In this document: positions 42,873 to 58,783 of the stretch, piece after piece
Layout of the letters: each line of letters starts with the position of its first letter
How positions within the stretch are numbered: the stretch's first letter is position 1
NCBI GenBank assembly: GCA_001799285.1
Contig: MGTD01000042.1
Span: 1 to 58,981 of the forward strand
DNA from: Deltaproteobacteria bacterium RIFOXYD12_FULL_56_24
GTDB lineage: Bacteria; Desulfobacterota; Desulfobulbia; Desulfobulbales; Desulfurivibrionaceae
Reading direction: 5' to 3'
Length of the DNA stretch: 58,981 nucleotides
The notes under the pieces: generated by a model
Seen by the model: only the letters and a program-made list of their open reading frames with translations
What the model was told of the DNA's origin: nothing
The model's database searches: none
Position numbers and translations under genes: made by a program

Positions 42873-43178
42873 TTGCACCCCCTAATCGCTTCAATATAAG
42901 AAGCAATTATAGGCGGTAATCATCTCACGTGCAACCGGATTTTGCTTTCCTCCATCCCCTGATCCCCGGAATAACTCGAGGAGGAAATATCGCCTGCATC
43001 TTTGTTCATCTCGTAACGAAACCCAAACTTTTTCCTCCCCACCTCCTCCCCTCCCGAATCAAATCATATTGCAAATTTAACACACCGCTCACAGAAAGCA
43101 CTTATAGCTATCTTAAGAAAAGAGGATTACGGCAGACCGCCAATAATGATGAACTCGCAAAAATAAAGGAGTAAAAAG
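42873..43178. other. Intergenic region between fic and the unknown 799-residue gene
   Basis: A 306-base gap between divergent genes. It ends with AAGGAG seven bases before the TTG start at 43179. CTTATAGCTATCTTAAG at 43100-43116 is A+T-rich and could hold a -10 box, but I find no convincing -35. GATGAACTCGCAAAAA at 43148 resembles a C-element end. No gene or strong hairpin is seen. Confidence 0.4.
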
Positions 43179-45578
43179 TTGAGCAGGCTTTCCTTTGCAG
43201 ACCTTTCCCTGTCCCAGTCAGGGGCGGTGCAAAACCCCAGACCCACGGAGCGCGAATGCATCGCCCTGCTCGGTCTTGATGCCAATTGCCCTGCCAGTCT
43301 GCCATTTTTCGGCTCCGACGCCACCACCGGCTGTGAAAACGAGCTGCAGGTGGCGGTGGGCGGCCGCCGCGAGGCGGCGGATCTGCCCAGAGCCATCGAG
43401 CAGTCAAGTTATTACGCCAACATCATCAAACGGACTGCTCGGGGCGACACCTCGCCCCGGCTCCGTCGGAACCTGGAGCGCTATCTCGACGACAACGTTG
43501 AGCAGGTCTGGGAAAACAGCTGGGTGCGTTTTCCTCTCTCCAGTCTGCACCCCAATGCGATGAATATCCTGGCTGTTGACCTCCTGGCCAACAAACAAAA
43601 TCCCGCTGGCGGCGAACGCTCTGACAGCGCCCGCTTCTTTGTGGAGGAGGGGGGAAAAAGGCATCTGCGCATCCCTATCAGCTATCTGCTCAAGCTGGCC
43701 TTGGCCGATGTGCTCGGCGAAGGCGGCGGCCACGAAACGGTGCGAAAAACCGGCAACCGGCTACTCACTCACTTGCTGAGCGATAACACCTCGCCGGAGA
43801 CCTTTTCTTTTCATGTCACCACCATGCACCCCCACACCGGCTACGGCATGGCTCTGGCCCGGGAAACCGCCAAGCGCTTCCTTTTTACCCAGCTGCTGAT
43901 CATGTATGCTAATGAAAAGTTCGGCCTGGTCCGGCTGGGGCAAAAGGCGATGCTCTTTTTCTCCCCGCATCCGCCGATGCGGCAGCGGGCTCTGAACGAA
44001 TGCATCTCCGACGCCTTCTATCGAAAGCTGTTCATGAGCCCCTGCCTCTCCGGCTGGGACGAAGGCGAGGCTAAGCACCAGTATATGATTCTTTGTCATC
44101 AGGTCTTGAGCCGCAGCCACCTGAACGCGGTGATGAAGATGCGCGAGGCAGGGATCATCACCACCAATCTGGTGATGCTGCCCCACACCTCCAACATCAG
44201 CCTGGCCAACAATGGCACCCATGTCAGCATGGGCAGCCGCAAGCTGGGCCGGTTGTTGCGCGATCCCGCCTCCGGCTTTACCCCCCGCCACGAGAAATGT
44301 ATGGGCGACCTGGTGGCCAAGATCATGGAGCACTTCCTGCCCCTTTTTGTCACCACTTACAGCGCCGCGCCCTACCGCCTGGCCTTCGAGGACTTCCACC
44401 CGGAGCAGGCCTTAAGCTTTCTCCCGCACCAGTTGGATTATACCCACCTGCGCATGCTCTGGCGGCGCTGGCGGAAAAAGGCGAAGAACAAGTTCTGCGG
44501 CCAGGCCCTCACCCCCTTCGGGCCGCAGCAGCTCGACCAGATCGTCGGAGGGCTCTGCCGCTGTCAGGGGGATTTTGTTCCGGATTTTCGGCTCATCGAT
44601 TACCCGGTGGCCCTGCTTTCCACCGAGCAAAGCGCCAGCCAGGACGGTCGACTGCACAATGACAGACGTCTCAAGGAAGACCTGGATATGCTTGGCATCT
44701 TCGACAAGCGGATGTCGGTCTATCTGCCGTACAAGCTGCGGGAATTCGAGGTCATGGGCTTTTCCGGCTTCGAGGCCAGGCACTACTCGCTTTTCGAGCA
44801 GTTCGCCGGCGATCTGGGCCGGGCCACCGACCTACAGATGCTGCTCAATGCCCTGGCCTTCAAGCTCATCGCCTCAGGCAGTTGCAGCCATCACCAGATT
44901 CCCGACACCCCCTTTGTCGAAAGCGAACGGCGCCAGATTATGTTCGGCACGGCCATCGGCATCCCCACTTTTTTCGTCCACAAGGATACACCCAACCTCT
45001 TTCTGCGTTCCATTCTGAAAAAGACCAAAAACACCCGCACCAGCCACCGCTACCCCGGCTATCTGCGGGTACTGCACCAGGAGTACCGCCTCGCCCTGCT
45101 TGAGGTCATCCGCGAAGAGGCGGCCGACCTGGTGGAGGGTTTCGACTTTACCGACCTGCTGGCCGATCTGGAGCTGCGCCTGCGGGAACCTGCCCAATAC
45201 GGGGCCTCTGGCCGACTGACCAGCGGAATCCTCGCCAAGGGGGGCGCCGAGTCTCCCTATGACATGTCGGCCAAGGAGTTCAATCTGACGGCGGAGCGTT
45301 ATTACCGCGAGGAGCTGCGGCAGACGCAAATCAAAGAAGGCTGGCAATATGTGGCCGAGGATATCAAGGCCATGGCTGTCGGTGAGATCCCGCTTTCCTT
45401 GGAGGTTCGCGCCGAAGTGGCCGCCATCCTCGGCAAGCAGGAGATCGACGCCTTCCTCCGCCAGACCCAGGATGAACTACTGGCGGATTGTCTTGCCCCG
45501 GCAAGCGCGGCGCGGCTGCTGCAACTCATGATCATCGCCGAGGATCTTGACGGCAAGCGGCAGAAACAGACTCTTTAG
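43179..45578 (+). CDS. Large unknown cytoplasmic protein
   Basis: A 799-residue protein that I do not recognise. TTG start with AAGGAG seven bases upstream. No signal peptide, membrane segment or classical nucleotide motif is evident. Segments rich in His and aromatic residues stand out: TTMHPHTGYGMALARETAKRF (about 212-232), AGIITTNLVMLPHTSNISLANNGTHVSMGSRKLGRLL (about 325-361) and HQLDYTHLRMLWRRWRKKAKN. The C-terminal third is predicted helical and charged. It is followed after 10 bases by a phosphatidylserine decarboxylase-like gene with a good ribosome site, so the pair is likely an operon, and a lipid-related role is a guess from context only. Confidence 0.75.
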   Translation: MSRLSFADLSLSQSGAVQNPRPTERECIALLGLDANCPASLPFFGSDATTGCENELQVAVGGRREAADLPRAIEQSSYYANIIKRTARGDTSPRLRRNLERYLDDNVEQVWENSWVRFPLSSLHPNAMNILAVDLLANKQNPAGGERSDSARFFVEEGGKRHLRIPISYLLKLALADVLGEGGGHETVRKTGNRLLTHLLSDNTSPETFSFHVTTMHPHTGYGMALARETAKRFLFTQLLIMYANEKFGLVRLGQKAMLFFSPHPPMRQRALNECISDAFYRKLFMSPCLSGWDEGEAKHQYMILCHQVLSRSHLNAVMKMREAGIITTNLVMLPHTSNISLANNGTHVSMGSRKLGRLLRDPASGFTPRHEKCMGDLVAKIMEHFLPLFVTTYSAAPYRLAFEDFHPEQALSFLPHQLDYTHLRMLWRRWRKKAKNKFCGQALTPFGPQQLDQIVGGLCRCQGDFVPDFRLIDYPVALLSTEQSASQDGRLHNDRRLKEDLDMLGIFDKRMSVYLPYKLREFEVMGFSGFEARHYSLFEQFAGDLGRATDLQMLLNALAFKLIASGSCSHHQIPDTPFVESERRQIMFGTAIGIPTFFVHKDTPNLFLRSILKKTKNTRTSHRYPGYLRVLHQEYRLALLEVIREEAADLVEGFDFTDLLADLELRLREPAQYGASGRLTSGILAKGGAESPYDMSAKEFNLTAERYYREELRQTQIKEGWQYVAEDIKAMAVGEIPLSLEVRAEVAAILGKQEIDAFLRQTQDELLADCLAPASAARLLQLMIIAEDLDGKRQKQTL

Positions 45579-45588
45579 GAGAGCAGCC

Positions 45589-46587
45589 ATGCATCAATAT
45601 GTCGAACGCTTAAGCGGCACGGTGATTAACGAGGAACTCTTCGGCGACCGGATCGTGCGTTTCCTGTACTCCCGAACCCGGGAAAAGGCCCCTTTTCTCT
45701 TCCGTCTGGCCACCTCGGCCCGCATGTCGAGCCTGCTCGGTTTGTATCATTTTGATCTGGCCCTGGGGCCGAGATTGAACGGCAACTCCCGCTTTCTAGC
45801 GCGCTGCGGCGTTGATCTTGCTGAATGCCTGGCGCCGCGAACCCACTTCACCACCCCCCGCCGGATCTTTGAGCGACAGATCCGCTATTGGCAGTGCCGA
45901 CCCATGCCGCAGCTGGAAGCGGCAGTGGTCTCCCCCGCCGATGCCCGGGTGGCGCTGGGGGCCCTGGCTTCCGATTCCCCGCTGTTTCTCAAGGACAAAT
46001 TTTTTGACTACGAGGAGTTGCTGGGCGCCAAACATCCCCTCTGGCTTGAGCTCTTCCGCCATGGGGACTACGCCGTCTTCCGGCTGACCCCGGACAAGTA
46101 CCACTACAACCACACTCCGGTCTCCGGCCTGGTGGTGGAACACTACACCCTGGACGGCGTGTACCATTCCTGCAATCCCGGCGCGGTGGTGGAGGTGATC
46201 ACCCCGTATTCCAAAAACAAACGGGTGGTCACCATTATCGACACCGACGTGGAAGGCGGAACCGGAATAGGGTATGTGGCGATGATTGAGGTGGTGGCCA
46301 TGATGATCGGCGACATCGTGCAATGCTACAGCGATACCGGCTATGATCACCCGCTGCGGGTTCGGCCCGGCATGTTTCTGCACAAGGGACAGCCCAAAAG
46401 TCTTTACCGGCCAGGGAGCAGCACCGACATCCTGATTTTTGAAAAGGACCGAATCAGTTTTGCCGGGGATCTTCTGGACAAGGGAAAGCGGACCGATGTG
46501 CACAGCCGCTTCAGCCTCGGTTTCGGCCGTCCCTTGGTAGAGGTCGAGGTCCAGGCGCGCTCCCTCATCGCCATGGCAAAAAAGTAG
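45589..46587 (+). CDS. Phosphatidylserine decarboxylase-like protein
   Basis: A 332-residue protein of the pyruvoyl-dependent phosphatidylserine decarboxylase family. The N-terminal VERLSGTVINEELFG and the central DYAVFRLTPDKYHYNHTPVSG match family blocks; the usual YHRxHxP is YHYNHTP. The self-cleavage site, normally a Gly-Ser in (L)GST, is PGSST here (Gly276-Ser277), so pyruvoyl formation remains plausible. DTDVEGGTGIGYVAMIEV follows the central block. The ATG at 45589 follows AGGAGAG. The family makes phosphatidylethanolamine, but the partner genes on each side suggest a specialised paralogue with a different phospholipid-like or serine-derived substrate. Confidence 0.8.
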   Translation: MHQYVERLSGTVINEELFGDRIVRFLYSRTREKAPFLFRLATSARMSSLLGLYHFDLALGPRLNGNSRFLARCGVDLAECLAPRTHFTTPRRIFERQIRYWQCRPMPQLEAAVVSPADARVALGALASDSPLFLKDKFFDYEELLGAKHPLWLELFRHGDYAVFRLTPDKYHYNHTPVSGLVVEHYTLDGVYHSCNPGAVVEVITPYSKNKRVVTIIDTDVEGGTGIGYVAMIEVVAMMIGDIVQCYSDTGYDHPLRVRPGMFLHKGQPKSLYRPGSSTDILIFEKDRISFAGDLLDKGKRTDVHSRFSLGFGRPLVEVEVQARSLIAMAKK

Positions 46588-46626
46588 GGGATCTTTTGAT
46601 AATTCCTTCGACCAAGGAGAAATGAG

Positions 46627-47685
46627 ATGAGCAACTCCCTTTTCATTTTGATTCTGGGGCTGGCGCTGCTTCCCCTGCTGCTGTGGGCCTACAGGGTTCT
46701 GCCCCGGGAAGAGTGGCAGATCATCGCCGCGCTTCCAACCAGAAAGAGCGAGACAACGGACGGCAGCTGGCACGGCACCAACCTCACCTATTACGGGGCG
46801 CTGCTGGCCACCGGCAGCCTTTTCGGGGCGATGATCTTTTTTCTCCTCCTAGCCAGTCTGGGCGTACCAATGTGGGGGATCATCGGCCTGCTCCTCGGGG
46901 TGATGGGCTGCTCGACGGCCGCGGCCAAGCTGCTCGCCATGGCGGTGGAAAAGAAACGGAACACCTTCACCGTGGGCGGCGCCGCCATCATCGGCCTGCT
47001 GAGCATGCCTCCGGCAGTGGCGGTCTATAACGGACTGGCCCTGCGGTGGGACGTGCCTCCAGTCTCCCTTATCCCGGTGCTGGGTGCCCTGGCGGTCGCC
47101 TATCTACTGGGCGAAGGGATCGGCCGGCTTGCCTGCCTCAGCTTTGGCTGCTGTTACGGCAAGCCCTTGTCCGAGCTGGGCCCGAAAGCGCGTCGATTCT
47201 TTACCCCCTTCGCCGCCACCTTTCACGGCGCCACCAAGAAGATTGCCTACGCCTCAGGCCTGGCCGGGGTCGAGGTGGTGCCGATTCAGGCCATCACCTC
47301 ATTGCTCTCGGTGACCTTCGGCCTATCGGCCATGTATCTTTTTCTGGAGGGACATTTCAGAACGGCTTTTTTGCTCGCCGGCATCTTCGCCCTTGCCTGG
47401 CGGATCCTCTCCGAGTACTTTCGCGCCGACTACCGGGGCGAGGGGAAATTTTCCGCCTATCAACAAATGGCTCTGTTAGGGGTCGGTTACTGCTCTCTTC
47501 TGGGACTATATGGCGGTAACAGCTCAGGCAGCCAGACCAACCTGGGGGCCGGGTTTGCCGCACTCTGGAATCCCGCATCCTTGCTTTTTTTTCAGGCCCT
47601 TTGGCTGCTGCTGTTCATCTATACGGGATTCAGCTCGGTGACCGGCGCCACGCTTTCCTTCCACGTGCGCCAGGAAAAGATCTAA
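46627..47685 (+). CDS. Lgt-like polytopic membrane protein
   Basis: A 352-residue protein with about eight hydrophobic segments. GEGIGRLACLSFGCCYGKPL (about 162-181) and RILSEYFRADYRGEGKFSAYQQ (about 258-279) match the two best-conserved regions of prolipoprotein diacylglyceryl transferase relatives (GR-GN-x-NGCCYG and RF-EF-RxD). The Asn of the Lgt signature is replaced (GRLACL), and no HGG-type motif is seen, so it may not be a true lipoprotein transferase. The ATG follows AAGGAG. It is the third gene of the plus-strand cluster, 39 bases after the decarboxylase-like gene, and suggests transfer of a lipid group. Confidence 0.75.
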   Translation: MSNSLFILILGLALLPLLLWAYRVLPREEWQIIAALPTRKSETTDGSWHGTNLTYYGALLATGSLFGAMIFFLLLASLGVPMWGIIGLLLGVMGCSTAAAKLLAMAVEKKRNTFTVGGAAIIGLLSMPPAVAVYNGLALRWDVPPVSLIPVLGALAVAYLLGEGIGRLACLSFGCCYGKPLSELGPKARRFFTPFAATFHGATKKIAYASGLAGVEVVPIQAITSLLSVTFGLSAMYLFLEGHFRTAFLLAGIFALAWRILSEYFRADYRGEGKFSAYQQMALLGVGYCSLLGLYGGNSSGSQTNLGAGFAALWNPASLLFFQALWLLLFIYTGFSSVTGATLSFHVRQEKI

Positions 47686-47714: not shown

Positions 47715-47930
47715 TTAGATACTTCCCCCTGAAAATCTGTCACGCACCATGCGCATGGCAAAGATAGAGACAAAATCCTTGACCACCGCCCTTGCCGTGA
47801 GTTCCCGGTAGGCGCACATCAATATCGGCCTGATTGTTTCCGTCTCGACCTGAAGTTGCCTGGCCAGATCAGTGATAATGCTCTCCAACTTTATGGCGTC
47901 GGGGTCTTGCCCGTTGTTTGGCTTGTCCAT
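47715..47930 (-). CDS. Small helical protein, DUF3562-like
   Basis: A 71-residue acidic protein. The pattern IITDLARQLQVETETIRPILMCAYRELTARAVVKDFVSIFAMRMVRDRF, a Vxxxy-type helix followed by a V-K-DF-xx-I-xxxxVR helix, resembles DUF3562 proteins of unknown function. It lies 29 bases downstream of the CofD-like gene on the same strand and may be the last gene of the GAK cluster. A ribosome site AGGAAGGAAAG precedes its ATG. Confidence 0.6.
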   Translation of the reverse strand: MDKPNNGQDPDAIKLESIITDLARQLQVETETIRPILMCAYRELTARAVVKDFVSIFAMRMVRDRFSGGSI

Positions 47931-47959
47931 TCTTTCCTCCTTCCTCTATCACGATCCGG

Positions 47960-49153
47960 TTACGTCAGCGAGAGCAGCAGGGGAACAAGCAGCCCGGGCT
48001 CGCAATAGGGGGCGCTTTCCTCGCTGACCAGCGGACAGTCGAGCAATTGAATGCCAAGTTTCGCAAGCCTTTCCTGGTCCACTTCCCCGGAGTATTCACC
48101 ATTTTTTGAGTCAACGAGAACACAGTTAAGTACCTGATGGGTCGGGATTTCAGGTCTGTTTTTCTTCAGGTAGTGCAGCAGGGTTTCGATCTGGTCCATG
48201 AGGGTAAGGCCAACAGCCTCCGGATCCCTGCCCATGCTGGGAATATAGATTTTTGGGCAGACGTTTTTCTGGATGGCTTCGGTCACTCCCCCCGGCAGCA
48301 GGCTGGCGATGAGGCTGGAGTAGAAGCTCCCCATGGGATAACAGATCAGTTGGGCGGAGAGGATCAGCTCGGGGAGCTTGTCGCGCACCCTTGGCCAGAC
48401 CTCGCCCTTGCTGGTAGCCGAGGTTGTCATGGTCAGAAAAAGGCGGACGATTTTTTTATTCAGGGGCGGAGCCTCCTTGCCGGTGAGCAGGTGCTGGCCC
48501 ACCACCACCTGACCGTCGGCAAGCATCGCCCCCAGGTGAAGATAACGGTTGAGCACCGGCCGGACCGTGCCCCGCGCCGCGACCAGTTTTGAAAAAAGAA
48601 AAATCATCGGGTCGAGGTGCCGGCCGTTGTCCAGGTATCCGGCAGTGAGCACCAAATTTCCGATACTGGCCCCTCGCAGGTCGAAGTCTTGGGGCATCCG
48701 GGTAAGAAAGATTTTCAGGTGATGGCGGACAATCTTGCGCAAGGGATCGGGGATGGCCGCCACCAAGCGGTGCCGACCGCCAATCATGGTCCGCAGCTCC
48801 GCAAGGAGCGATTCCAGTTCCGTCTCTTTGGGGAAGCGGTAGGCAAAGAGTCGATACATCTCCGGGTTGCCCTGCACACTCTGGTCGGCCAAGTCCATGA
48901 GCCGGGCTCGGATATCGCCGATGGAGGGCATGGAAAAGGCCTGGCGCAGAATGGCGGAACTGCCCCCGGAATCGACGGCGGTCATGATGTGGCAGGAGTT
49001 GTGGGTGTAGTGGATCAGCTCCCGGCTCAGCCCCCGCAGGGCGCTGCCGCCGCTGAAGAAGAGCAGGCGCGGCCCCAGCTCGGGGGTGCGTCGGTAGAGT
49101 TCCACCCGGACTGGGTCCGGCAGGGTTATCTCCCTGCATACCTTGATTTTCAT
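47960..49153 (-). CDS. GAK-system CofD/YvcK-like protein
   Basis: A 397-residue protein. LLFFSGGSALRGL (about 33), TAVDSGGSSAILR (about 58) and GDIRARLMDLAD match the CofD/YvcK family, in which CofD transfers a phospholactyl group to make coenzyme F420 and YvcK binds UDP-sugars. GASIGNLVLTAGYLDN matches the second conserved block. I recognise it as the CofD-related member of the GAK cluster. The ATG at 49153 is preferred; the frame is open 46 codons further into the kinase gene. Its reaction is unknown; F420 genes are absent here. Confidence 0.85.
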   Translation of the reverse strand: MKIKVCREITLPDPVRVELYRRTPELGPRLLFFSGGSALRGLSRELIHYTHNSCHIMTAVDSGGSSAILRQAFSMPSIGDIRARLMDLADQSVQGNPEMYRLFAYRFPKETELESLLAELRTMIGGRHRLVAAIPDPLRKIVRHHLKIFLTRMPQDFDLRGASIGNLVLTAGYLDNGRHLDPMIFLFSKLVAARGTVRPVLNRYLHLGAMLADGQVVVGQHLLTGKEAPPLNKKIVRLFLTMTTSATSKGEVWPRVRDKLPELILSAQLICYPMGSFYSSLIASLLPGGVTEAIQKNVCPKIYIPSMGRDPEAVGLTLMDQIETLLHYLKKNRPEIPTHQVLNCVLVDSKNGEYSGEVDQERLAKLGIQLLDCPLVSEESAPYCEPGLLVPLLLSLT

Positions 49154-49175
49154 GGGATAATATCCGGGTCGTCCG

Positions 49176-50264
49176 TCAATGGTCTCGGCATTCGGCCAGG
49201 ATCCCCAGGCAGGCGTGACAGGCCCGGTCGAAATCGATGCCGCCACTGATCTCGTACACCCGTGTTTTTGCGAGGAGTTCCAGATAGGCATCCTCGGAAT
49301 GATCGATCTCTTCGCCGTACTCCTGGAGAAAGAAAAGGCCGGCGGATTTCATAAAGGCAGGAAGAAGGTCCCGGCGTAGCCGGATATCAACTTCCCGCAC
49401 CACGGTAGGCGCAGAGCCCCGTTGCCAATTGAGGACCACCAGCCCAGCCATGGAGGCGGCCAGGGTAAAACGGCCGGGGCCAAAGCAGTGGTCGAGGAAC
49501 ACGTCGTATTTGTGTTCCAGGTTCCAGAGCTCCTCCGGGGCGAGATCGGAGAATCGTTCCCGGTCCTGGGGCGGAATGACCCCGGCCAGGTCGGGGTTAT
49601 TGAGCGCCGTGCCGGGGTTGATGCGGGGAAGTTTAGCCACTCCGTTCATGAAGAGTCCGGCGGTATCCTCCCTGAGCAGCAGTCTATCGTTGCTGATAAA
49701 GTCCACCCCCCGGCTCATCAGGTGCAGGGCCAGGGTGGACTTGCCCATGCCCGAGAAGCCGGCCAGGGCCAGGCCGCAGCCGTGCAGGCCGACGCCGGCG
49801 GCATGGCCCAGCAGGCAGCCCTGCCGGAGTTTCCAGCTGATGAAGCGATTGTTGATGAAGTTGATCACCTGGTTGGCGTTGGCCAGGCAGGGGCCGATGG
49901 CCAGGCTATCATCGCCGCCGAAGACGAAAACCATGCCGGTGAGGCGCTTGCGTACCACGCGACCATCGGCCAGTTCGACATACTCCTCCTTAACCTTGTT
50001 CTTGCCGGGGTCCGGCTCCTTGGTAGTGAAGAGGTGGGGAAGTTCGGGCGGCTCCGCCTCATGGGCGGTGATCAGCATGTCCCAGACCGGAGCGTCGGAG
50101 AGAAAATCGCTGAAGTACTCCCGCAGAGTATTGGTCAAGGCGAGGGAATTGGTCCGCACCCCGATCCGGCAGTCATCAAAGGCGAGGACAAGCCGTTGGT
50201 CAGGCGGGAATTCCGCCCGGAGGCGCTGCACCATCTCATGACGTTCCGTGGACTTCCCGCTCAT
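49176..50264 (-). CDS. GAK-system HprK-related kinase (type B)
   Basis: A 362-residue P-loop protein. The Walker A motif GFSGMGKST (169-177) follows CLLGHAAGVGLHG, and VDFISNDRLLLR is the acidic second motif, as in HPr kinase/phosphorylase relatives. The N-terminal 110 residues are separate and unassigned. HPr kinases phosphorylate or dephosphorylate a serine in a carrier protein; this branch belongs to GAK clusters and its target is not known. The ATG overlaps the stop of the ATP-grasp gene by four bases. Confidence 0.87.
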   Translation of the reverse strand: MSGKSTERHEMVQRLRAEFPPDQRLVLAFDDCRIGVRTNSLALTNTLREYFSDFLSDAPVWDMLITAHEAEPPELPHLFTTKEPDPGKNKVKEEYVELADGRVVRKRLTGMVFVFGGDDSLAIGPCLANANQVINFINNRFISWKLRQGCLLGHAAGVGLHGCGLALAGFSGMGKSTLALHLMSRGVDFISNDRLLLREDTAGLFMNGVAKLPRINPGTALNNPDLAGVIPPQDRERFSDLAPEELWNLEHKYDVFLDHCFGPGRFTLAASMAGLVVLNWQRGSAPTVVREVDIRLRRDLLPAFMKSAGLFFLQEYGEEIDHSEDAYLELLAKTRVYEISGGIDFDRACHACLGILAECRDH

Positions 50265-51136
50265 GCCTCAATCCTCCCACAGACATAGTCCGTATAATGT
50301 CGGGCCGCGTCGATGCCGCAGGCCTCCTGAATGCCCCGAAACCCCCCGAAGGCGGATACCTCAAACACCCGAGGTCCCTCGTCGGTCTCCACCACATCGA
50401 CGCAGGTGAAGTCAAGGTCAAAGGGGGCCTGGGCTTTGCGGGCCAGGGCAATGATCTCCTTCGACGGCTCGTGGTGCTGATACCTGCCGCCGGAGGCGGT
50501 GGTAGTGTTCCATGATTCGTTGCGGGTGGTGCGGGCATAGGTGGTGAGATACTGGCCGCCCAGGAATACCACCCCCAGGTCGCGGCCGTTCAGCTCGATC
50601 TTTTTCTGGATATACATGATCCGGTGCTCGGCTTTATACTCCTCGATAACCGCGCGGGTCTCCTTGCCGGGCCGCAGCACGATCATGCCCCGCGCCTTGG
50701 TGGAGTAAAGCGGCTTGAAGACCGCCTCGCCGTATTGCGCCACCGCCTCCAGAGCCACGTCCACCTCTTCGGTGATGGTCAGCGGCGGCATGGGGATCCC
50801 GGCAAGTTGCAGGGTAATGGTGCAGGTGAGCCGGTCCATTACCCGGATGATATTCACGGGGTTGGAAAAGACCGGCAGCCCCTTTTCGGCCAGAAAACGG
50901 AAAACCTCCAGCCGGTCGAGCAGGTCTGGAGAGTAGTTCTTGCCGATCTTTTTGATGATCAGGCCGTCCAGAGAATTAAGCTCCACCTCGCCGGAGAGCA
51001 CCCGGCCCGAGGGCAAATCAAGCCGCACCGCGCTTGGATCCACCAACAGGCGGAAACCGGTGCGTTCCGCCACCGCATCGGCAAGTTTCTCGGATGACCA
51101 ACCGCCAGGAATGCCGACAACGCCTATTTTTTTCAA
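50261..51136 (-). CDS. GAK-system ATP-grasp (RimK-like) ligase
   Basis: A 291-residue ATP-grasp enzyme. IGVVGIPGGWSSEKLADAV opens the protein; MDRLTCTITLQLAGIPMPPL, AVFKPLYSTKARGMIVL (ATP-lysine region), IQKKIELNGRDLGVVFLGG and PFDLDFTCVDVVETDEGPRVFEVSAFGGFRG (metal-binding end) follow the RimK/glutamate ligase order. Such enzymes join an amine to a carboxylate by acyl phosphate. I chose a TTG start at 51136 because AGAGGT lies seven bases upstream; earlier starts would run into the PhoU-kinase gene, whose stop is at 51160. Confidence 0.87.
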   Translation of the reverse strand: MKKIGVVGIPGGWSSEKLADAVAERTGFRLLVDPSAVRLDLPSGRVLSGEVELNSLDGLIIKKIGKNYSPDLLDRLEVFRFLAEKGLPVFSNPVNIIRVMDRLTCTITLQLAGIPMPPLTITEEVDVALEAVAQYGEAVFKPLYSTKARGMIVLRPGKETRAVIEEYKAEHRIMYIQKKIELNGRDLGVVFLGGQYLTTYARTTRNESWNTTTASGGRYQHHEPSKEIIALARKAQAPFDLDFTCVDVVETDEGPRVFEVSAFGGFRGIQEACGIDAARHYTDYVCGRIEA

Positions 51137-51159
51137 GAAAAGACCTCTTTTGAGAAATA

Positions 51160-52809
51160 TCAGTAGTACATGATGCCGGAAGGCAGGGAAAAGGTGTGCC
51201 ATGGGCTGTCCTGATGCGCCAATACTTTTTCCAGCAGGAAGTGGGAACGCAGAAACATCTCATGGGCAAAATCGTTATTCCACTCAAAACGGGTGGAGGT
51301 GTAAAAAGAGCGAGCCAAGGCCAGGGCCATGCGCACTTCGAAGGTTTCATCACCCTGTTCGACGGCAAACTCACGCGCCATCTGGTACATATTCCGGGTG
51401 ATCCAGTTGAGCCGGTCACGCAGGTGCGTTTTAAAGACCGGCTGCCTGAAGTTGGAGACGATGAACACCGACACGTCCTGGATGTAGTCCGCTTCCCGGG
51501 ATCGGTAGAGATCGATTAGCTGAATGCGCTCCCTGGCCGCGTTGTAAATGATGTTGTTGACATTGAAATCGCCGTGGATGAAGACCGAGAAGGGGGCGGC
51601 CAGTTTTTCTTCGATGTGGCGGCACTTGGCAAGCAACTCGTCGGTGGGCATTACCTCCGAGGAACCGATATCCTGGCGGGCTCGGAGAAAATCGGGATGC
51701 ACACTAAGCACGCTGTGCATCCGGGCCATGATCTGCGGGATGAAGTTGGCCTTGACCGGCATCTCTTTTTTGGTCCGTTTCCATATCTCCCGAACCGTGG
51801 AGTGCAGCAGCAGACAAACCGTTTCCAACTCGGCGGGGTCGCCCTTAAGGAGAATAGCCTCAAAGGTCCGGCCAGGGAGAAACTCCACCAGCAGGGAGGC
51901 GGTCTCCTCCGATTCCTGATGACTGAACAACCTGGGGGTCAGGCCGGGGAAGATCTCGTGCCAGCGCTCCAGATTTTTCTTCTCGGTCAGGATCTTCTCC
52001 TTGTTGCCCTCCTTGAAGATGCTGCTCTGCGTCTGGGGGATGATCTGCGGTTGCTCATTATGGCCATGAACCTTGCGAATGCGACAGCCGGAACGGCTTC
52101 CCAGGATGGAGGAAAATCCCACCTCGGCCAGGTTGGTGCGCAGGCCGGACTTGCTCAGGGTTTCCTCCAGGGCCTGGAACTGTTCGATCTTGATCTTTTC
52201 GCCCAAAATGGAAAGGAGCAAGGCCTCGCCGATATTGAGCAGTGAATCGCCCATCCGCTCCAGGTAACGAAAGATAAAGAGTACGGTAACCAGATTTTCT
52301 ATCTCCTTGCCGCTCCGGAGGGCCTCCATGATTTTGTCGAAATTTTCCTTGTAGATGTCATCGATCTGGTTTTCGGCCCGACAGATGGCGAGGGCTTTGC
52401 CCATGTCGCCGTTCTTGAGCACCGGGATGACCTCCTGCAAGTGTTCGGCAAGGAGGTCGAAGATCCGCTGATAATCGAAATGCTGGAGAATGGCGTGATT
52501 GTTGAGATAGTGGAGCTGGTCCGCGGCGCTGACGCAGAAGTCGCCGATACGCTCCAGATTGACGCAGATAGTGTGGGTTGCCCGAATGCTGTCCCTTTCC
52601 CTTTGGGTGATGGACCGGGCCTCGCTCAAGGTGGTAAAACAGCAGTTCTCGATCACCGTTTTGAGGTTGTCGATGTAGTCGTCCCGGCTGTTAATTTTCT
52701 GGAAGGCGGCCACCTCGCCGCTTGCCAGAAAATCGAAGGTCTCGTCGAGCTGACGCGCCACCTCGACCACCATAAAGCTGAGATTTTCCTTGAGCGCGGC
52801 GGTCAGCAT
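51160..52809 (-). CDS. PhoU domain fused to an aminoglycoside-phosphotransferase-type kinase
   Basis: A 549-residue two-domain protein. Residues about 1-215 are two PhoU-like helical repeats with the ERIGD and ERMGD signatures (VNLERIGDFC, RYLERMGDSLLNIG). Residues about 265-520 resemble an APH/choline-kinase fold: SIFKEGNKEKILTEKKNLERW at the nucleotide lobe, then the catalytic FIHGDFNVNN (about 413) and the magnesium aspartate in LIDLYRS. PhoU domains sense or signal phosphate with metal clusters. The fusion in a GAK cluster suggests phosphorylation of a small molecule under phosphate control, which is inference. Confidence 0.8.
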   Translation of the reverse strand: MLTAALKENLSFMVVEVARQLDETFDFLASGEVAAFQKINSRDDYIDNLKTVIENCCFTTLSEARSITQRERDSIRATHTICVNLERIGDFCVSAADQLHYLNNHAILQHFDYQRIFDLLAEHLQEVIPVLKNGDMGKALAICRAENQIDDIYKENFDKIMEALRSGKEIENLVTVLFIFRYLERMGDSLLNIGEALLLSILGEKIKIEQFQALEETLSKSGLRTNLAEVGFSSILGSRSGCRIRKVHGHNEQPQIIPQTQSSIFKEGNKEKILTEKKNLERWHEIFPGLTPRLFSHQESEETASLLVEFLPGRTFEAILLKGDPAELETVCLLLHSTVREIWKRTKKEMPVKANFIPQIMARMHSVLSVHPDFLRARQDIGSSEVMPTDELLAKCRHIEEKLAAPFSVFIHGDFNVNNIIYNAARERIQLIDLYRSREADYIQDVSVFIVSNFRQPVFKTHLRDRLNWITRNMYQMAREFAVEQGDETFEVRMALALARSFYTSTRFEWNNDFAHEMFLRSHFLLEKVLAHQDSPWHTFSLPSGIMYY

Positions 52810-52822
52810 GGTTTGGGCGCCA

Positions 52823-53095
52823 TCACGAGCCGATGCTCATGGAGGAAGCGCGCTCGTCCTTGATGACCGGCTTGATCTCCGACCAGGATAATTTAATGGA
52901 AAGCTTGTTTTGTCCGTCCTTCTTCTTGGCCTGTACCGAAAACTTCATCAGATCATCGACCCGCATGGCCATCTCCTCGCCATTGGACTTGAGGATGATG
53001 CGCCCCTTTTCGATGGAGTCGATCAGGGAGACCAGATAGGTCTTGATGGAGTGGGCGTCCTGCAATGATTCGTAGTCAAACTTTTTGGTGGACAT
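52823..53095 (-). CDS. Amphi-Trp domain protein (GAK system)
   Basis: A 90-residue protein with the amphi-Trp arrangement: a helical SLQDAHSIKTYLVSLIDSIEKGRI, a strand ending in KSNGEEMAMRV, then FSVQAKKKDGQNKLSIKLSW with the alternating polar/nonpolar pattern and the tryptophan that names the family. The family gives GAK its A. A carrier or scaffold role phosphorylated by the HprK-like kinase is an attractive guess. The ATG follows GAGGT. It lies 13 bases upstream of the PhoU-kinase gene. Confidence 0.85.
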   Translation of the reverse strand: MSTKKFDYESLQDAHSIKTYLVSLIDSIEKGRIILKSNGEEMAMRVDDLMKFSVQAKKKDGQNKLSIKLSWSEIKPVIKDERASSMSIGS

Positions 53096-53153
53096 GCTCG
53101 TACCTCGATTTTTTTGATGGTCTCGTGAAAATCTTCAACATAAGAACCGCTGG

Positions 53154-54320
53154 TCATCCTGCCAGTCTGGCCTTGTATTCTTCCAGCACGTCATGTTTGT
53201 CCATGTGGGCCACCACCAGCTTTTTGCGGATGGCCTGATCACTCCAAGGCGGCTGCACCCCGATCTCCCGGGAGACCTTAAGGAGGTCGCGTTCATGCGG
53301 CGGCCTGGTCTTTTCACTCAGGTGGGTGTCGTCCCCCATAAAAACCAGGAGCCGTCTTTTTGAGAGGCCGGCTTCGCGGTTCTTCCGGTTGAGCACAGTG
53401 ATGAGAAAGTCGGTATATTCCCAGGACTGGGGGTTCCAGACCTCATAGCCGTCCACATCATAGTCGGCCAGGAGAATGGGCCAGAACTGCTCCGGATGGG
53501 GAATGACCACCCCCGCCCCCAGCCCACGGGCTTCCTCGATGATTTCCGAGGTGCGGTAGAAATATTGGGGGGAGAAGTTCCGTTTGACGATCTCCTTGAC
53601 CGCTTTCAGAAAGGCCTGGGCCCGGTTGATGACCGTATCGCCGTAATCCGGGCGCAGGGCGTCGAAGAAGTCGCGCAGCAGCTTGTTCTTGATGCTGTCC
53701 GGAGGCACCTGGTCCATATGACGGTCCAGCAGATCATTGATCTTTTGCACATAGATGCGGACAAAACCGACCAGCTCCGCATCGGCTCCGGTTTCTCCGG
53801 CAGCCTCGTCGAGCCGCTCCTCCACCGGATTGGTGATAGTGTGGATGAAGTCAAAGAGCTGGGAGGCCCGGTACTGGCGGGTATGGGCCAATTGCGCCTT
53901 TAGAACTCCGGCCCGCTCAAGGCGGCTCGTCGCAAAATGGAGCAGCAGCTGCACCTTGCGGTTGAATCCCCGCGAGTAACAGTCCACCTCGACCCCGCTG
54001 TAATTTCCGTAGCTCATCAGCATGTTGTGCTGGGTGGGGATGATCAGTTCCTCCTTCCGGTTTGGAAAGGTGGCATTGATCCGCTGCTCAATCAGCGCCA
54101 TGGGGACGAATTCCGGATGCCAATGAAGCGCCATGACCCCCTGCTGCCGGGGGTAGACCTTTTCCGGGGTGAGTACCAGTCGGATCTGTTCAGGCGCCAG
54201 CTCTGTCGCGATGATGGCAAAAAAACGCTGCGCATCGCTCTCGGTGATCTCCTCCGGAATTACATCCGGCAGGTCGTGAGGAACCACTTCCGATCTATGT
54301 TTTGGTTTGACCAGTTTCAT
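53154..54320 (-). CDS. PHP-type metallophosphoesterase in the GAK cluster
   Basis: A 388-residue protein. The PHP metal site can be followed in order: HWHPEFVP (about residue 66, HxH), QHNMLMS (about 98), GVEVD (about 108), IPHPEQFW (about 276) and GDDTHLS (about 333), the last corresponding to the GSDxH of PHP proteins. A long helical insert occupies about 130-260. PHP enzymes hydrolyse phosphate esters. I have no record of this subgroup as a named GAK member, but its position between the XXXCH and amphi-Trp genes argues for a role. ATG at 54320 chosen; a TTG 20 codons upstream is possible. Confidence 0.72.
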   Translation of the reverse strand: MKLVKPKHRSEVVPHDLPDVIPEEITESDAQRFFAIIATELAPEQIRLVLTPEKVYPRQQGVMALHWHPEFVPMALIEQRINATFPNRKEELIIPTQHNMLMSYGNYSGVEVDCYSRGFNRKVQLLLHFATSRLERAGVLKAQLAHTRQYRASQLFDFIHTITNPVEERLDEAAGETGADAELVGFVRIYVQKINDLLDRHMDQVPPDSIKNKLLRDFFDALRPDYGDTVINRAQAFLKAVKEIVKRNFSPQYFYRTSEIIEEARGLGAGVVIPHPEQFWPILLADYDVDGYEVWNPQSWEYTDFLITVLNRKNREAGLSKRRLLVFMGDDTHLSEKTRPPHERDLLKVSREIGVQPPWSDQAIRKKLVVAHMDKHDVLEEYKARLAG

Positions 54321-54398
54321 GGACAATGTCTGCTCCGTGGCTTGGCTGTGTCGGCGGGAATCACCTGCGAAGTTAAACAAATGATTTGGTCTTGGGGA

Positions 54399-54947
54399 TT
54401 ATTTGTACTGCTCATGGCAGAGCTTCTTCATCGCCTTGAGTTCGGCGTATTTTTCCTGCATGGCCACAAGGTTGCCATTTTCGCAGGCCACGTTGAGCTG
54501 AACACAGAGCTTGGCGTACTGGTCATAGTGCTCGTCGCCATAGCCCGGATAAGCCACCATGAGTTCCGAATCGGCAATGAACGCAGCCATCTCACCCTTC
54601 TCGGGCATGATCCCTTTCTTGAGCGCCTCGCCCATGGACTTGAAGCACTTGTCCATCCGTTTCTTCACTGTTTTGTACTTGGGCTTGCCGTCGGCTTCCG
54701 TCTCTTCGCCGATCCCCTCGCCACAGACCATCCCAGGCACGATGGACTTCACCTTAGCCTTCAGATAAAGCTGATCCCCTTCGCGTTTCAATTCGAGCTT
54801 CATCTTCTTGAGGTCATCGAAGGACAAGTCGAATTCCTTCAACTCCTCCATGTTGCCGTGTTCGATCATTTGAGCCAGGACGCGAAGAAAATCCGCAGCA
54901 TTCTTGAAGGGCATCGTCTTCTCGAATTTCATCTCTTTGCCGGACAT
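54399..54947 (-). CDS. XXXCH-type GAK protein
   Basis: A 182-residue acidic, lysine-rich protein. The N-terminal MKFEKTMPFKNAADFLRVLAQMIEHG and the following LSFDDLKKMKLELKREGDQLYLKAKVK resemble an amphi-Trp-like fold, and the C-terminus MKKLCHEQYK carries the LCH motif of XXXCH proteins. GYGDEHYDQYAKLCVQLN just before it is helical. It is the first gene of the GAK cluster. The ATG follows AGGGGA. Other cysteines: Cys in VCGEG and DKCFKS and ACENG. Its role may be as a modified carrier, but this is not shown. Confidence 0.78.
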   Translation of the reverse strand: MSGKEMKFEKTMPFKNAADFLRVLAQMIEHGNMEELKEFDLSFDDLKKMKLELKREGDQLYLKAKVKSIVPGMVCGEGIGEETEADGKPKYKTVKKRMDKCFKSMGEALKKGIMPEKGEMAAFIADSELMVAYPGYGDEHYDQYAKLCVQLNVACENGNLVAMQEKYAELKAMKKLCHEQYK

Positions 54948-55340: not shown

Positions 55341-57212
55341 TCATGCCGCTTTTCCGTCTTCCGCGGGGCTCAAAGAGCGGACAGCCTCCCGCCGGTTGCG
55401 GACAATGGCCGAGCCTTTTTCCTTCTTGGCTGCCCGCTTCACCCCGGAGGCGAGGAAGGCCAGCTCCGCATAGGAATTCACCGGGCATTCCTCGGTGCTC
55501 ACGATGCCGATGGAGAGCGAAAGCAGGGCAAACCGCCGCTGTTCCCCTTGCCGATCGCGGGCATAATAATGGCCATCGTGCACCTCCTGCTCCCCATGAA
55601 ATTCCGGCAGCAATTTTTGCAGCTCCTCGATAATTTGTCGGCAGATTTGCTGGGAGGCATAGGGCCGGGTGATGACGATAAAATCATCCCCCCCGATGTG
55701 GCCGACAAAACGAAAACGGTCGTCGCCGCCGGGTTGAACGAGATCGACAATGGCCTGACCGAGCCTCTTGATGACCAGATCCCCCTTTTCAAAGCCGTAA
55801 TAATCGTTATAGGGCTTGAAATCGTCGATATCTATATAGCAGACGTCGAAATGGACCTTACGCTGGAGCAGCGTAGCTACAGTTCGCTGGATGAATTCGT
55901 TGCCAGGCAGCCCTGACAGGGGGTTCGCCCCCTTGGCCAGACGAAGGCTTTTCTGGGTAATGGCCTCGAGCAGGGCGTTGATGGCCACGGTGCCGAGGTA
56001 TTTGCCGTTTCTGGTCACGCAGATATCGTCATACAGATGTCTGCCCCTCCGATTCTTGATCTTCCGCACCACCTCTTCCATGGGTGTTGCCGCCTCAACC
56101 AGGAGGAAGTCATCGCCAAGCACATCCTTGACCGCTCGGTGGGCGGAGAGGGCAAAGCCATAGCCATGGGGGCCGACCATCTGTTTCTCCAGAAAATGCA
56201 TCCGGTTCAGCATGCCAAGAACCCTTTCCTCGTCCACAACCGGGAGGCCCTGCAAATTGACATTTTCCATGAACCGTTGATGGGCGATCATGAGCGACTG
56301 TTGGAGCGTAAGGGGCTCAACATACTTGACGGTGGCGCTTATGGTACAGGATTCCCCCGGAGCCTCGGCACAATAGGAGGCATCAAGGGCAACCAGCGGA
56401 GCAAGGCGCTGCCGGCTTAAGTTCGGCCCCGGTCGTTCCAGGAGGAAGCCCTGAAGCAGATCAATATCAAAGCGGGCCACGGTCTCCAGCTCTTCCGGCC
56501 TCTCGATCCCCTCGGCAATGATGGTGATGCCCAGCTTGTGGCATACCGTGGCAATGGCGTCCACCAGATTATGCTTAAAGGAGTCCTGGTCGATATTGGT
56601 GATGAAATGCCGGTCCACCTTGACATAGTCCGGCTCGATGACCGAAAGCATCTTCAGCCCGCCGTAACCGACCCCGAAGTCGTCGATGGCAATCTTGTAT
56701 CCCCGTCTCCGGTAGTATTCCACCGATCTTTTAAAAAGATCGTAGTTCCGAATCGCGTCCTGCTCGGTGATCTCCAGAATAATCCTTTCCTTGGCTATGC
56801 CGTATTCCTCGGCCATCCGGTCTGTCTCGCCGCTCCGGTGATGATGCATAAGGGTGGCCGGACAGATATTCACATAGAGGTAGGCGTTTCTCTCGGCGAA
56901 ACCCAGCTCCGCCGCACGAGAAAAGGCATTTTCCCGGCAGATCATATCAAGGGTTGGAATGATGCCTTCGGCCTGGGCTTTTTGAAAAAGCTCTCCGATA
57001 TCAAGGGGCGGGGTCCTGGCCTCCCGCAGTCTGGCCAAAGCCTCATAGCCGAAAACCTCCCCGGTTCGCCGGGAAAAGACCGGCTGAAACCAGGCGGTGA
57101 GGCCATTATTGTCCAGCAGGTCAAGGATCTCCGCCTGGGTTAAGCCGCTCGACTGAATCCCGCTGCGCTCCGCCTCGTCTTCCAGCATAAAGATCTCCGC
57201 CGACTGGCTCAT
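55341..57212 (-). CDS. EAL-CBS-GGDEF c-di-GMP protein
   Basis: A 623-residue cytoplasmic protein with three parts. EAL domain (about 25-275): GYEALARLR (EAL at 57-59), NICPATL, EITE, IDDFGVGYGGL and DYVKVDRHF, a set consistent with active phosphodiesterase. CBS pair (about 300-440): LTLQQSLMIAHQRFMENVNLQGLPVVDEERVLG. GGDEF domain (about 460-615) with DDFKPYNDYYGFEKGD and HIGGDDFIVI; GGDDF departs from GGDEF, so cyclase activity is uncertain. The ATG at 57212 follows GGTGG and overlaps the stop of the chemoreceptor gene by four bases, so they are coupled. Confidence 0.9.
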   Translation of the reverse strand: MSQSAEIFMLEDEAERSGIQSSGLTQAEILDLLDNNGLTAWFQPVFSRRTGEVFGYEALARLREARTPPLDIGELFQKAQAEGIIPTLDMICRENAFSRAAELGFAERNAYLYVNICPATLMHHHRSGETDRMAEEYGIAKERIILEITEQDAIRNYDLFKRSVEYYRRRGYKIAIDDFGVGYGGLKMLSVIEPDYVKVDRHFITNIDQDSFKHNLVDAIATVCHKLGITIIAEGIERPEELETVARFDIDLLQGFLLERPGPNLSRQRLAPLVALDASYCAEAPGESCTISATVKYVEPLTLQQSLMIAHQRFMENVNLQGLPVVDEERVLGMLNRMHFLEKQMVGPHGYGFALSAHRAVKDVLGDDFLLVEAATPMEEVVRKIKNRRGRHLYDDICVTRNGKYLGTVAINALLEAITQKSLRLAKGANPLSGLPGNEFIQRTVATLLQRKVHFDVCYIDIDDFKPYNDYYGFEKGDLVIKRLGQAIVDLVQPGGDDRFRFVGHIGGDDFIVITRPYASQQICRQIIEELQKLLPEFHGEQEVHDGHYYARDRQGEQRRFALLSLSIGIVSTEECPVNSYAELAFLASGVKRAAKKEKGSAIVRNRREAVRSLSPAEDGKAA

Positions 57213-58783
57213 GCGGCCACCAGCCGGGGGAAGAGCCGTCCGGACTCCTCCTGCCACCGTTCCTCTGCCACCGCCGCTTCCTCCTGTCCGTTGATCAAGG
57301 TAATCAGCGCCCCCGAGATAAGCCGCAGCTCCACCGCCTGGGTCCGCAATTCCGCCGCGGTTCTCGCGGCCTCTCCCGCCTCGACCGAGGCCGCCAGACT
57401 CACCGTGTCGATCTCACCCATGGCCGCGCCCACCTGCCTAATGCCGATAACCTGCTCGGCGCTGGCCACCGCGATGTTCTGTACCTCCTCATCAACTCTG
57501 GCGATACCCTGGTGGATCTCGACAAACGCCTTGTCCAGACTTTCACAGAGCACGCTGCCCTGCTTGACCTTCTCGATATTATTTTTAATGATTTCGCCGG
57601 TTTCCTTGGCGGAAGAGGCCACATTATGAGCCAGCCTCCTGATCTCCTCGGCAACCACGCCGAAACCGGACCCGGCCTCTCCGGCCCTGGCCGCTTCCAC
57701 GGCAGCGTTGAGCGCCAGCATGTTGGTCTGAAAAGCGATGTCGTTGATGTTCTTGATGATCTTCATTACCCCGGCAGACTGGCCTTCTATCTCCTGCATG
57801 GCCTGGAGCATCATGGCCATCTGCGCCCCGCCATCCAGCACCACCCGTTGCATGTCATTAGAAAGAGCGCCGGCCTGCCGGGCGCTTTCGTTGTTGGCCT
57901 GGGTCTGGCCGAAGAGCTGTTCGATGGCGGCGCCGGTCTCTTCCACCCCGGCAGCCTGCCGCCCCTTCCCCTCCGCCAGGCTCAGGCTTGAAGCGGAAAG
58001 CAGGGTTGACTCCTCATAGACCTGCTCCACCACGCCCTGCAATCTTTCCTTGATCTGCAGCAAAGGCTGCATCACCTTGCGGCCAAGATAAAAAAGGATG
58101 AACAGAAAGACGCCGAAAACGCCAAGCCCGGAGCCGAGAAAGGCGAGGAGGGAATAATTCTTCGCCTTCCGGAACAAGGCCTCATGCTCGGTTCCCACTG
58201 CGGCAATGACCACGCCGGCCCGCACCCCTGTCTGTTTGGCGACATGCTCGGCCAGGGTCCGGGCCAGGGTGACGGCCTGCACAGCCTGGTCACCGGTATA
58301 CTGATCAGCGGCCCGGATGCCATCGGAATACTTCTCCTGAAACTCGATCATGCCCTGACCGACGGTGAGTTGCCGCTTGAACTTGTCATATTCCCCGGAA
58401 ATCTGTTGCAAGAGCTGCAAGGCCGCCGGATCCCGCGCCAGGGCCTTTTGCCCGGCCCCCAGCATGGTGGTGATCCTGACATCACCCTTTGCCAGCTCCT
58501 GGGCGTACTTGGCCCGCATGTCCAGAAACTGGCCCCGGATCAGAAAATTTTTCCACTGCAACATCTGCTCCAGCAGGGCTGCCTGCAGCTCCCGGACCAG
58601 AAGCACATGGTCGATACCGTTTTCGCCGGAAACCTGGATCCCTTCGTTTGCCTGACGCGCTCCCAAAATGAGCTCTTCCTGGGTGTTTACCGAAATGGTG
58701 TACAGCACACTCATCCCAACCCCTGCGGCCAGCATGATAAAGACAAAGAAAAAACCAAGCCTGTTTTTCAAGTTCCGACGCAT
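57209..58783 (-). CDS. Methyl-accepting chemotaxis protein
   Basis: A 524-residue receptor. Membrane helices at about 9-31 and 212-234 enclose a mostly helical periplasmic sensor domain. The signalling hairpin is clear: IIKNINDIAFQTNMLALNAAVEAARAGEAGSGFGVVAEEIRRLA. FGVVAEEI replaces the commoner FAVVA-EV. Glutamine/glutamate-rich adaptation sites flank it (EETGAAIEQLFGQT). No NWETF-type CheR tail is seen. It is coupled by overlap to the EAL-CBS-GGDEF gene, hinting that the receptor pathway or its ligand also controls c-di-GMP. The 198 bases upstream to the window end show no gene. Confidence 0.92.
   Translation of the reverse strand: MRRNLKNRLGFFFVFIMLAAGVGMSVLYTISVNTQEELILGARQANEGIQVSGENGIDHVLLVRELQAALLEQMLQWKNFLIRGQFLDMRAKYAQELAKGDVRITTMLGAGQKALARDPAALQLLQQISGEYDKFKRQLTVGQGMIEFQEKYSDGIRAADQYTGDQAVQAVTLARTLAEHVAKQTGVRAGVVIAAVGTEHEALFRKAKNYSLLAFLGSGLGVFGVFLFILFYLGRKVMQPLLQIKERLQGVVEQVYEESTLLSASSLSLAEGKGRQAAGVEETGAAIEQLFGQTQANNESARQAGALSNDMQRVVLDGGAQMAMMLQAMQEIEGQSAGVMKIIKNINDIAFQTNMLALNAAVEAARAGEAGSGFGVVAEEIRRLAHNVASSAKETGEIIKNNIEKVKQGSVLCESLDKAFVEIHQGIARVDEEVQNIAVASAEQVIGIRQVGAAMGEIDTVSLAASVEAGEAARTAAELRTQAVELRLISGALITLINGQEEAAVAEERWQEESGRLFPRLVAA

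Follow-up and report, generated by a model that had tools for sequence, protein, structure and literature searches.

A gene cluster of the GAK type

The window analysed here is a 58,981-nucleotide stretch of contig MGTD01000042.1 from Deltaproteobacteria bacterium RIFOXYD12_FULL_56_24. Positions 47715–54947 hold a GAK locus of eight genes, all on the minus strand (Table 1). GAK is a system named in NCBIfam, where it is represented by TIGR04355–TIGR04358 and the amphi-Trp model TIGR04354; five proteins of the window operon score above the curated cut-offs of these GAK-associated families (XXXCH, amphi-Trp, grasp_GAK, HprK_rel_B and CofD_rel_GAK). This bears out an earlier note, made from the sequence alone, which had described a complete GAK cluster of seven named genes; their presence, strand and order are confirmed by open reading frame (ORF) coordinates and by NCBIfam and Pfam matches, as is the fusion of PhoU and APH domains in one protein. 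The inventory was incomplete in one respect, the eighth small ORF (47930–47715) in the same interval having been missed; this gene, encoding a three-helix protein, is found at the cluster end in only four of 88 loci, all close relatives. The same note had some genes overlapping by four bases; the ATP-grasp/HprK junction (50261–50264) is the sole junction with an overlap of exactly that length. Two of the proteins, the PhoU-fused kinase (52 of the 53 loci counted below) and the PHP protein (46 of 53), differ from the rest of the NCBIfam system in carrying no GAK name in Pfam or NCBIfam.

Table 1. The eight genes of the GAK locus, with window coordinates and the matches on which each assignment rests.
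Product	Position (strand)	Length	Matches and remarks
XXXCH protein	54399..54947 (-)	182 aa	TIGR04358, 94.9 bits (cut-off 40); weak TIGR04354, E 0.006
PHP-type metal phosphoesterase (predicted)	53154..54320 (-)		Start estimated, ORF from TTG at 54380; predicted fold and conserved residues
Amphi-Trp protein	52823..53095 (-)	90 aa	TIGR04354, 63.5 bits (cut-off 31); motif FDYESLQD; candidate substrate
PhoU domain fused to APH-type kinase	51160..52809 (-)	549 aa	PF01895, E 6.3e-24; PF01636, E 5.9e-10
GAK ATP-grasp enzyme, RimK/LysX/MptN-like	50261..51142 (-)		Start estimated, ORF from 51202; TIGR04356, 459.3 bits (cut-off 300)
HprK-related kinase B	49176..50264 (-)		TIGR04355, 531.9 bits (cut-off 200)
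GAK CofD/YvcK-like protein	47960..49153 (-)		Start estimated, ORF from 49291; TIGR04357, 514.7 bits (cut-off 340)
Small three-helix protein	47715..47930 (-)	71 aa	Three-helix dimerization domain NF046112, 26.4 bits (cut-off 25)

Distribution and co-inheritance

Genomes were drawn from the class (192) and from the phylum (395), with 33 GAK genomes across both draws. In the class, grasp_GAK and HprK-related kinase B (HprK-B) were above cut-off in the identical 10 genomes, and CofD_GAK in eight of those 10 and in no other, a partial copy below cut-off being present in G143. XXXCH and amphi-Trp were above cut-off in 34 and 45 of the 192 class genomes, respectively, so both also exist outside GAK. 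HprK-B was found in 24/395 genomes of the phylum draw. The ligase was present in every one of the 33 GAK genomes (above cut-off in 32), as was HprK-B.

A scan of a genome collection with the ligase returned 455 relatives, of which 80 loci were listed. The flank needed for presence counts was available in 53 of these; the 27 other named loci were omitted from that count, and L032 and L035–L041, which are unnamed copies of, or additions to, named loci, were omitted from the motif, presence and alignment counts. Among the 53 loci the PhoU-kinase was present in 52, amphi-Trp in 51, HprK in 49, PHP and CofD in 46 each, and XXXCH in 35. Of the two small partner proteins, the near-universal one is amphi-Trp; XXXCH looks like an optional part of GAK. 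The gene order XXXCH, PHP, amphi-Trp, PhoU-kinase, ligase, HprK, CofD (X-P-W-U-G-K-C) was found again in many genomes and therefore reflects clustering beyond chance. Co-occurrence of the genes in other genomes, which had been set as a test beforehand, holds in the class, phylum and collection scans, and we conclude that the gene set is inherited as a unit.

The set is not invariant. L091 has neither PhoU-kinase nor HprK, and L116 has no HprK. The related genomes G458 and G567 both have it in two pieces, with ligase, HprK and CofD at one locus and a second HprK together with XXXCH, PHP, amphi-Trp and PhoU-kinase at the other; each genome has one ligase place. Five plasmids carry the ligase, and among the listed loci it occurs in worm symbionts (L109, L111, L117, L119). 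Of the two loci of Desulfamplus magnetovallimortis (L053 and L074), one has all of the GAK genes and the other retains PHP, PhoU-kinase and ligase.

Linkage to phosphate-uptake genes

PstB was above cut-off near GAK in L032, L040, L062, L063 and L184, and L042 has a PstB listed for G029. In L181, PstS, PstC and PstA were above cut-off, and pstS-pstC-pstA leads directly into PHP, amphi-Trp, PhoU-kinase, ligase, HprK and CofD, with a PhoB-like regulator alongside (PhoB is its best model, at 261 bits against a cut-off of 296). A search for PstB in the 33 GAK genomes, a less selective test than the reading of loci, found 36 places in 30 genomes. In five of the 33 (G029, G038, G160, G277, G512) PstB lay within 10 kb of the ligase, as compared with 0.19 expected from a calculation on the sizes of the genomes and their PstB counts (Poisson P 2e-6; counting two congeners once leaves four cases and P 5e-5; the test ignores phylogeny beyond that one pair). 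The GAK cluster lies beside phosphate-uptake genes more often than chance, a link that goes beyond what had been read from the sequence earlier. No Pst gene was found at 32 stand-alone XXXCH and amphi-Trp loci, whose few, short stretches make them a weak control.

Two sets of candidates were excluded from the count: the ABC genes of L059, which are molybdate-like by eye, and the PstS matches in L083 and L084, which do not adjoin the cluster. Outside the cluster, a stand-alone XXXCH gene adjoins a PHO4 phosphate permease (L140), and the genome of the window contains another XXXCH gene, divergent in sequence (30 bits; G000:C38:8809-9078, L138:4659-5285), with PstB ∼15 kb away on the same contig.

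A motif in the amphi-Trp protein

The amphi-Trp protein adjoining the PhoU-kinase carries the motif Fxx[ED]SxQD before a helix. ESxQD occurs in 47/55 rows in this first position (a list that counts a second paralogue in L104) and in five of six proteobacterial rows, in none of 40 downstream copies and none of 13 stand-alone copies, and in three of 10 unplaced rows. The Ser is kept in 63 of 66 aligned GAK amphi-Trp sequences, an alignment from which L176, L177, L185, L186, L191 and L192 were omitted as presumed duplicates or close copies; of its ten ‘other’ rows with the motif, nine also appear among the first-position rows above and one, L178, sits between PHP and PhoU-kinase. Three plasmid copies retain S-L-Q-D. 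On this pattern of conservation, Fxx[ED]SxQD is the best candidate modification site. No HPr-family match was obtained for amphi-Trp in NCBIfam or Pfam. The stand-alone amphi-Trp genes of L156, L159 and L160 precede a small operon whose genes resemble, by eye, those for fatty-acid-type reductase and dehydratase.

The PHP protein and the exchange of phosphatases

The product of the second gene had been called a PHP phosphoesterase. Sequence profiles of Pfam, NCBIfam and PDB gave no match, either for the window copy or for the 15 members also scanned; the call is upheld by the predicted structure (pLDDT 84), which has the PHP fold, and by residues resembling metal sites. Foldseek placed the model nearest to RNase AM (E 7.8e-6) and to the PHP group of 3o0f/3e0f (E 8.2e-6), and structural alignment gave Z 15.8 to 3o0f, 15.4 to RNase AM and 14.7 to 2yb1 over 240–245 residues, the first unrelated row scoring Z 4.8. 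Relative to this group the GAK protein has 15–20% identity and an extra helical insert. H86, H88, H118, E131, H148, H295, D351 and H353, assigned to metal sites by motif, without superposition, are shared by at least 93% of the 53 sequences aligned, the window copy among them. The modelled fold makes the protein a predicted PHP phosphoesterase.

Proteobacterial loci have a different arrangement: after PhoU-kinase, ligase and HprK come genes for a histidine phosphatase, a calcineurin-like metallophosphatase and amphi-Trp, in many cases accompanied by a Nudix or SixA-Nudix gene. This cassette was seen in Enterovibrio, Roseibium and the symbionts of tubeworms, and also on three plasmids of Rhodobacterales. 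Histidine phosphatase and metallophosphatase were both present in six of seven PHP-less loci and in none of 46 PHP loci (BLAST E 1e-6, within 5.5 kb), the seventh PHP-less locus, L083, having neither. A phosphatase is therefore nearly always present, and it looks like PHP is replaced by unrelated phosphatases doing one function. At L117:11999-12787 and at L086:9024-9998 a single reading frame encodes a SixA-type phosphatase and then a Nudix domain; the frame in L086 lies between PhoU-kinase and ligase, and its Nudix part alone passes Pfam.

Kinases, ligase and CofD-like protein

In HprK-B, at least 93% of 72 sequences retain the P-loop (residues 169–177, G169xSGxGKST), H154 and D193. The Asp of HprK has a catalytic role, and HprK-B shares with HprK/P both the P-loop and the Asp region, kinase-specific residues. 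It aligns with a solved HprK (1ko7) at a PDB E-value of 0.0012 and scores 29.1 bits against the HprK equivalog TIGR00679, for which the cut-off is 240. The operon contains no gene resembling HPr. The excerpt of PMC2937029 describes inhibition of the HprK/P kinase by inorganic phosphate (Pi), which is also a substrate of the phosphorylase reaction of HprK/P; with Pi in both roles, a Pi-linked HprK relative is plausible. The PhoU-kinase matches PhoU chains in the PDB (E 1.2e-8), and its kinase residues H412-G-D414, N416, N419 and D433 are kept in at least 93% of 70 sequences.

The core of the ligase, kept in at least 93% of 81 sequences, is RimK-related (PF08443, E 2.8e-12; LysX/RimK chains in the PDB, E from 2.2e-17). 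After its own family the ligase matches best the tetrahydromethanopterin glutamate ligase MptN (E 3.9e-42) and then the RimK family (E 1.6e-29). It is set apart from these relatives by scores below all their cut-offs and by the sequence E281-V-S283 (at least 93% of the same 81 sequences), where aligned LysX-type chains have E-V-N or E-L-N; E-x-N is the metal-site motif of RimK/LysX/MptN-type ligases.

The CofD-like protein matches the CofD family of Pfam (E 2.2e-36) and a YvcK-type model (E 1.5e-30), and its PDB matches are all to UPF0052-type chains (E 3.1e-19). By sequence it appears nearer to YvcK, but at 106.7 bits it falls below the YvcK cut-off of 196 and belongs to a GAK-specific family, distinct from YvcK/GlmR and CofD.

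The XXXCH protein

The XXXCH protein is predicted to consist of an amphi-Trp-like N-terminal part and a four-helix, cytochrome c′-like bundle ending in CHxxYK (model pLDDT 81). Profile comparison relates it to cytochrome c′ (class II cytochromes c), with a best E-value of 0.002 and the CH in register. Foldseek ranked cytochrome c′ first (E 0.043, with no hit below 0.001), and VIA-align gave Z ∼11 to cytochromes c′ and likewise to designed bundles and BRIL, a score that is not decisive for helical bundles. The CxxCH heme motif is incomplete: the first Cys is absent from all 29 GAK sequences, and the His is kept in 29 and the second Cys in 28. Met98 is kept in 28 of the 29, and all 29 end four residues after the CH His. 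Among stand-alone XXXCH proteins, CH is kept in 16/16 and Met98 in 6/16, and 13/16 also end four residues after the His. The fixed CHxxYK end may accordingly be a tail for the ligase or simply the point at which the bundle stops. No export signal is apparent (top 19-residue hydropathy 0.76), which, together with the missing first heme Cys, sets the protein apart from cytochrome c′. The profile and model suggest that the domain resembles a cytochrome c′ bundle; heme binding by it is putative. The stand-alone XXXCH genes of L142, L144 and L146 have a similar small neighbour protein by eye (start MKI..D.NLV...PE...E...LW).

Neighbouring genes

The flanks of the window cluster (55341–58783 and 45547–47685) encode an EAL-CBS-GGDEF protein and an MCP upstream, on the minus strand, and phosphatidylserine decarboxylase and a prolipoprotein diacylglyceryl transferase-like gene downstream, on the plus strand; a Fic-domain protein with DUF4172 lies at 41754–42878. 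The largest recurring neighbour clusters across loci (26 and 10 loci; sensor-like proteins and ABC ATPases by eye) are scattered on both sides and were judged unspecific, and some smaller ones are reverse-strand shadows of real genes.

Discussion

Co-inheritance, gene order, conservation of catalytic motifs, phosphatase exchange and Pst linkage were all computed, and it is from these that we infer every reaction considered below. The best single account, which we put forward tentatively, is a phosphate-linked, HprK-type switch that would act on the amphi-Trp protein. HprK-B, perhaps together with the PhoU-fused kinase, would phosphorylate amphi-Trp at Fxx[ED]SxQD, most likely on the Ser. In most Desulfobacterota loci the PHP phosphatase may erase the mark, a task that would fall to histidine phosphatase and metallophosphatase in proteobacterial loci; HprK-B could possibly remove it too, by Pi-dependent phosphorolysis of the kind seen in HprK/P. 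Phosphate or nucleotide-sugar status would be reported by the PhoU domain and the YvcK-like protein, XXXCH might serve as an optional heme or redox input and, as the weakest step, the RimK/LysX-like ATP-grasp enzyme may join an amino acid to a small partner protein.

Several observations weigh against such a switch. The likeness of HprK-B to HprK/P is confined to an alignment of ∼60 residues in the P-loop region. HprK and amphi-Trp are missing from the examined stretch in L074 and L094. In place of the motif Ser, L083 and L183 have Ala and one further aligned row has Gly; the Ala variants argue against obligate phospho-Ser. The phosphatase exchange tracks phylum. As for phosphate, no Pst gene lies within 10 kb in 28 of the 33 GAK genomes (some contigs ending sooner), the window has none and the two PstB places of its genome are on other contigs; the Poisson test of the linkage, as noted, takes little account of phylogeny.

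A post-translational or conjugate-building pathway, the reading offered at first, is consistent with the parts, but a small-molecule pathway is nearly as likely. In such a pathway, which we regard as possible, the enzymes would assemble and recycle a phosphorylated compound, either a cofactor or a second messenger. A kinase would phosphorylate a small substrate, the CofD/YvcK-like protein would make a phosphodiester or nucleotidyl intermediate and the MptN/RimK-like ATP-grasp enzyme would add an amino acid, much as F420 or tetrahydromethanopterin is tailed; breakdown of the product would fall to PHP, Nudix and histidine phosphatases, with the small proteins as effectors or chaperones. The ranking of MptN directly after the ligase's own family favours this, as do the Nudix and SixA-Nudix genes of proteobacterial loci and the presence of 2yb1, solved with AMP and phosphate, among the nearest PHP folds. 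A further point in its favour is the phosphodiester that the CofD family forms during F420 synthesis. Another is the YvcK relative GlmR, which makes UDP-GlcNAc according to the excerpt of PMC10128056. Against it, no scaffold-making or activating enzyme is found among the recurring neighbours, CofD is missing from seven of 53 loci and amphi-Trp is as constant as the enzymes, a constancy that a pathway of free metabolites does not need.

Two further explanations are unlikely, to a similar degree. One is a paralogue of the Gram-positive HprK-Crh-YvcK control, in which HprK-B, a Crh-like amphi-Trp and the YvcK-like protein would tune carbon flow or envelope synthesis, the Pst linkage being secondary. 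An HprK-type kinase and a YvcK-type protein do share one operon, a Nudix gene adjoins CofD in some proteobacterial loci and, in Bacillus subtilis, the yvcI-yvcN gene order includes crh; but amphi-Trp has no HPr-family match, and two features, the PhoU domain and the Pst linkage, indicate phosphate. The same two features, with the SixA-like and Nudix genes, would suit the other, the management of polyphosphate or phosphate granules, in which the enzymes would process polyphosphate-bound proteins or store phosphate and amphi-Trp would bind granules. There, however, no polyphosphate kinase, exopolyphosphatase or CHAD gene was recognized by eye among the recurring neighbours, and amphi-Trp also occurs far from phosphate genes. 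An anti-phage defence cassette, suggested by the patchy spread (10/192 class and 24/395 phylum genomes) and by the five plasmids with the ligase, is very improbable given that none of the eight proteins has a PADLOC match, that no defence gene was recognized among the recurring neighbours and that the cluster is linked to Pst.

The phosphate-linked switch can be extended to an intracellular phosphate-status circuit of a new type, a version that we consider improbable as a whole. In it, an HprK-type kinase/phosphorylase with Pi as effector would mark amphi-Trp, a new class of substrate; the RimK-like enzyme would tail the fixed C-terminus of XXXCH, putatively a heme-binding protein of the cytoplasm descended from cytochrome c′, and so couple redox state to phosphate supply; and the mark would be erased by unrelated phosphatases exchanged between phyla.

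GAK is already a named system; new here are the link to phosphate, the motif in amphi-Trp, the exchange of phosphatases and two assignments, PHP and cytochrome c′-like. A literature search of open-licence PMC papers found none recognizable as being about GAK function; PMC10734472, which treats phosphate islands that carry pst and phoU along with a SixA phosphatase, contains neither ‘grasp’ nor ‘nudix’ in its excerpt and was not used. The ligase has 455 relatives in one genome-collection scan, with copies on plasmids and in worm symbionts, and the Pst linkage, the private amphi-Trp motif and the phosphatase exchange turn its function into short, testable questions. If the proposed switch is true, a phosphate-linked protein-modification circuit would exist beside PhoR-PhoB.

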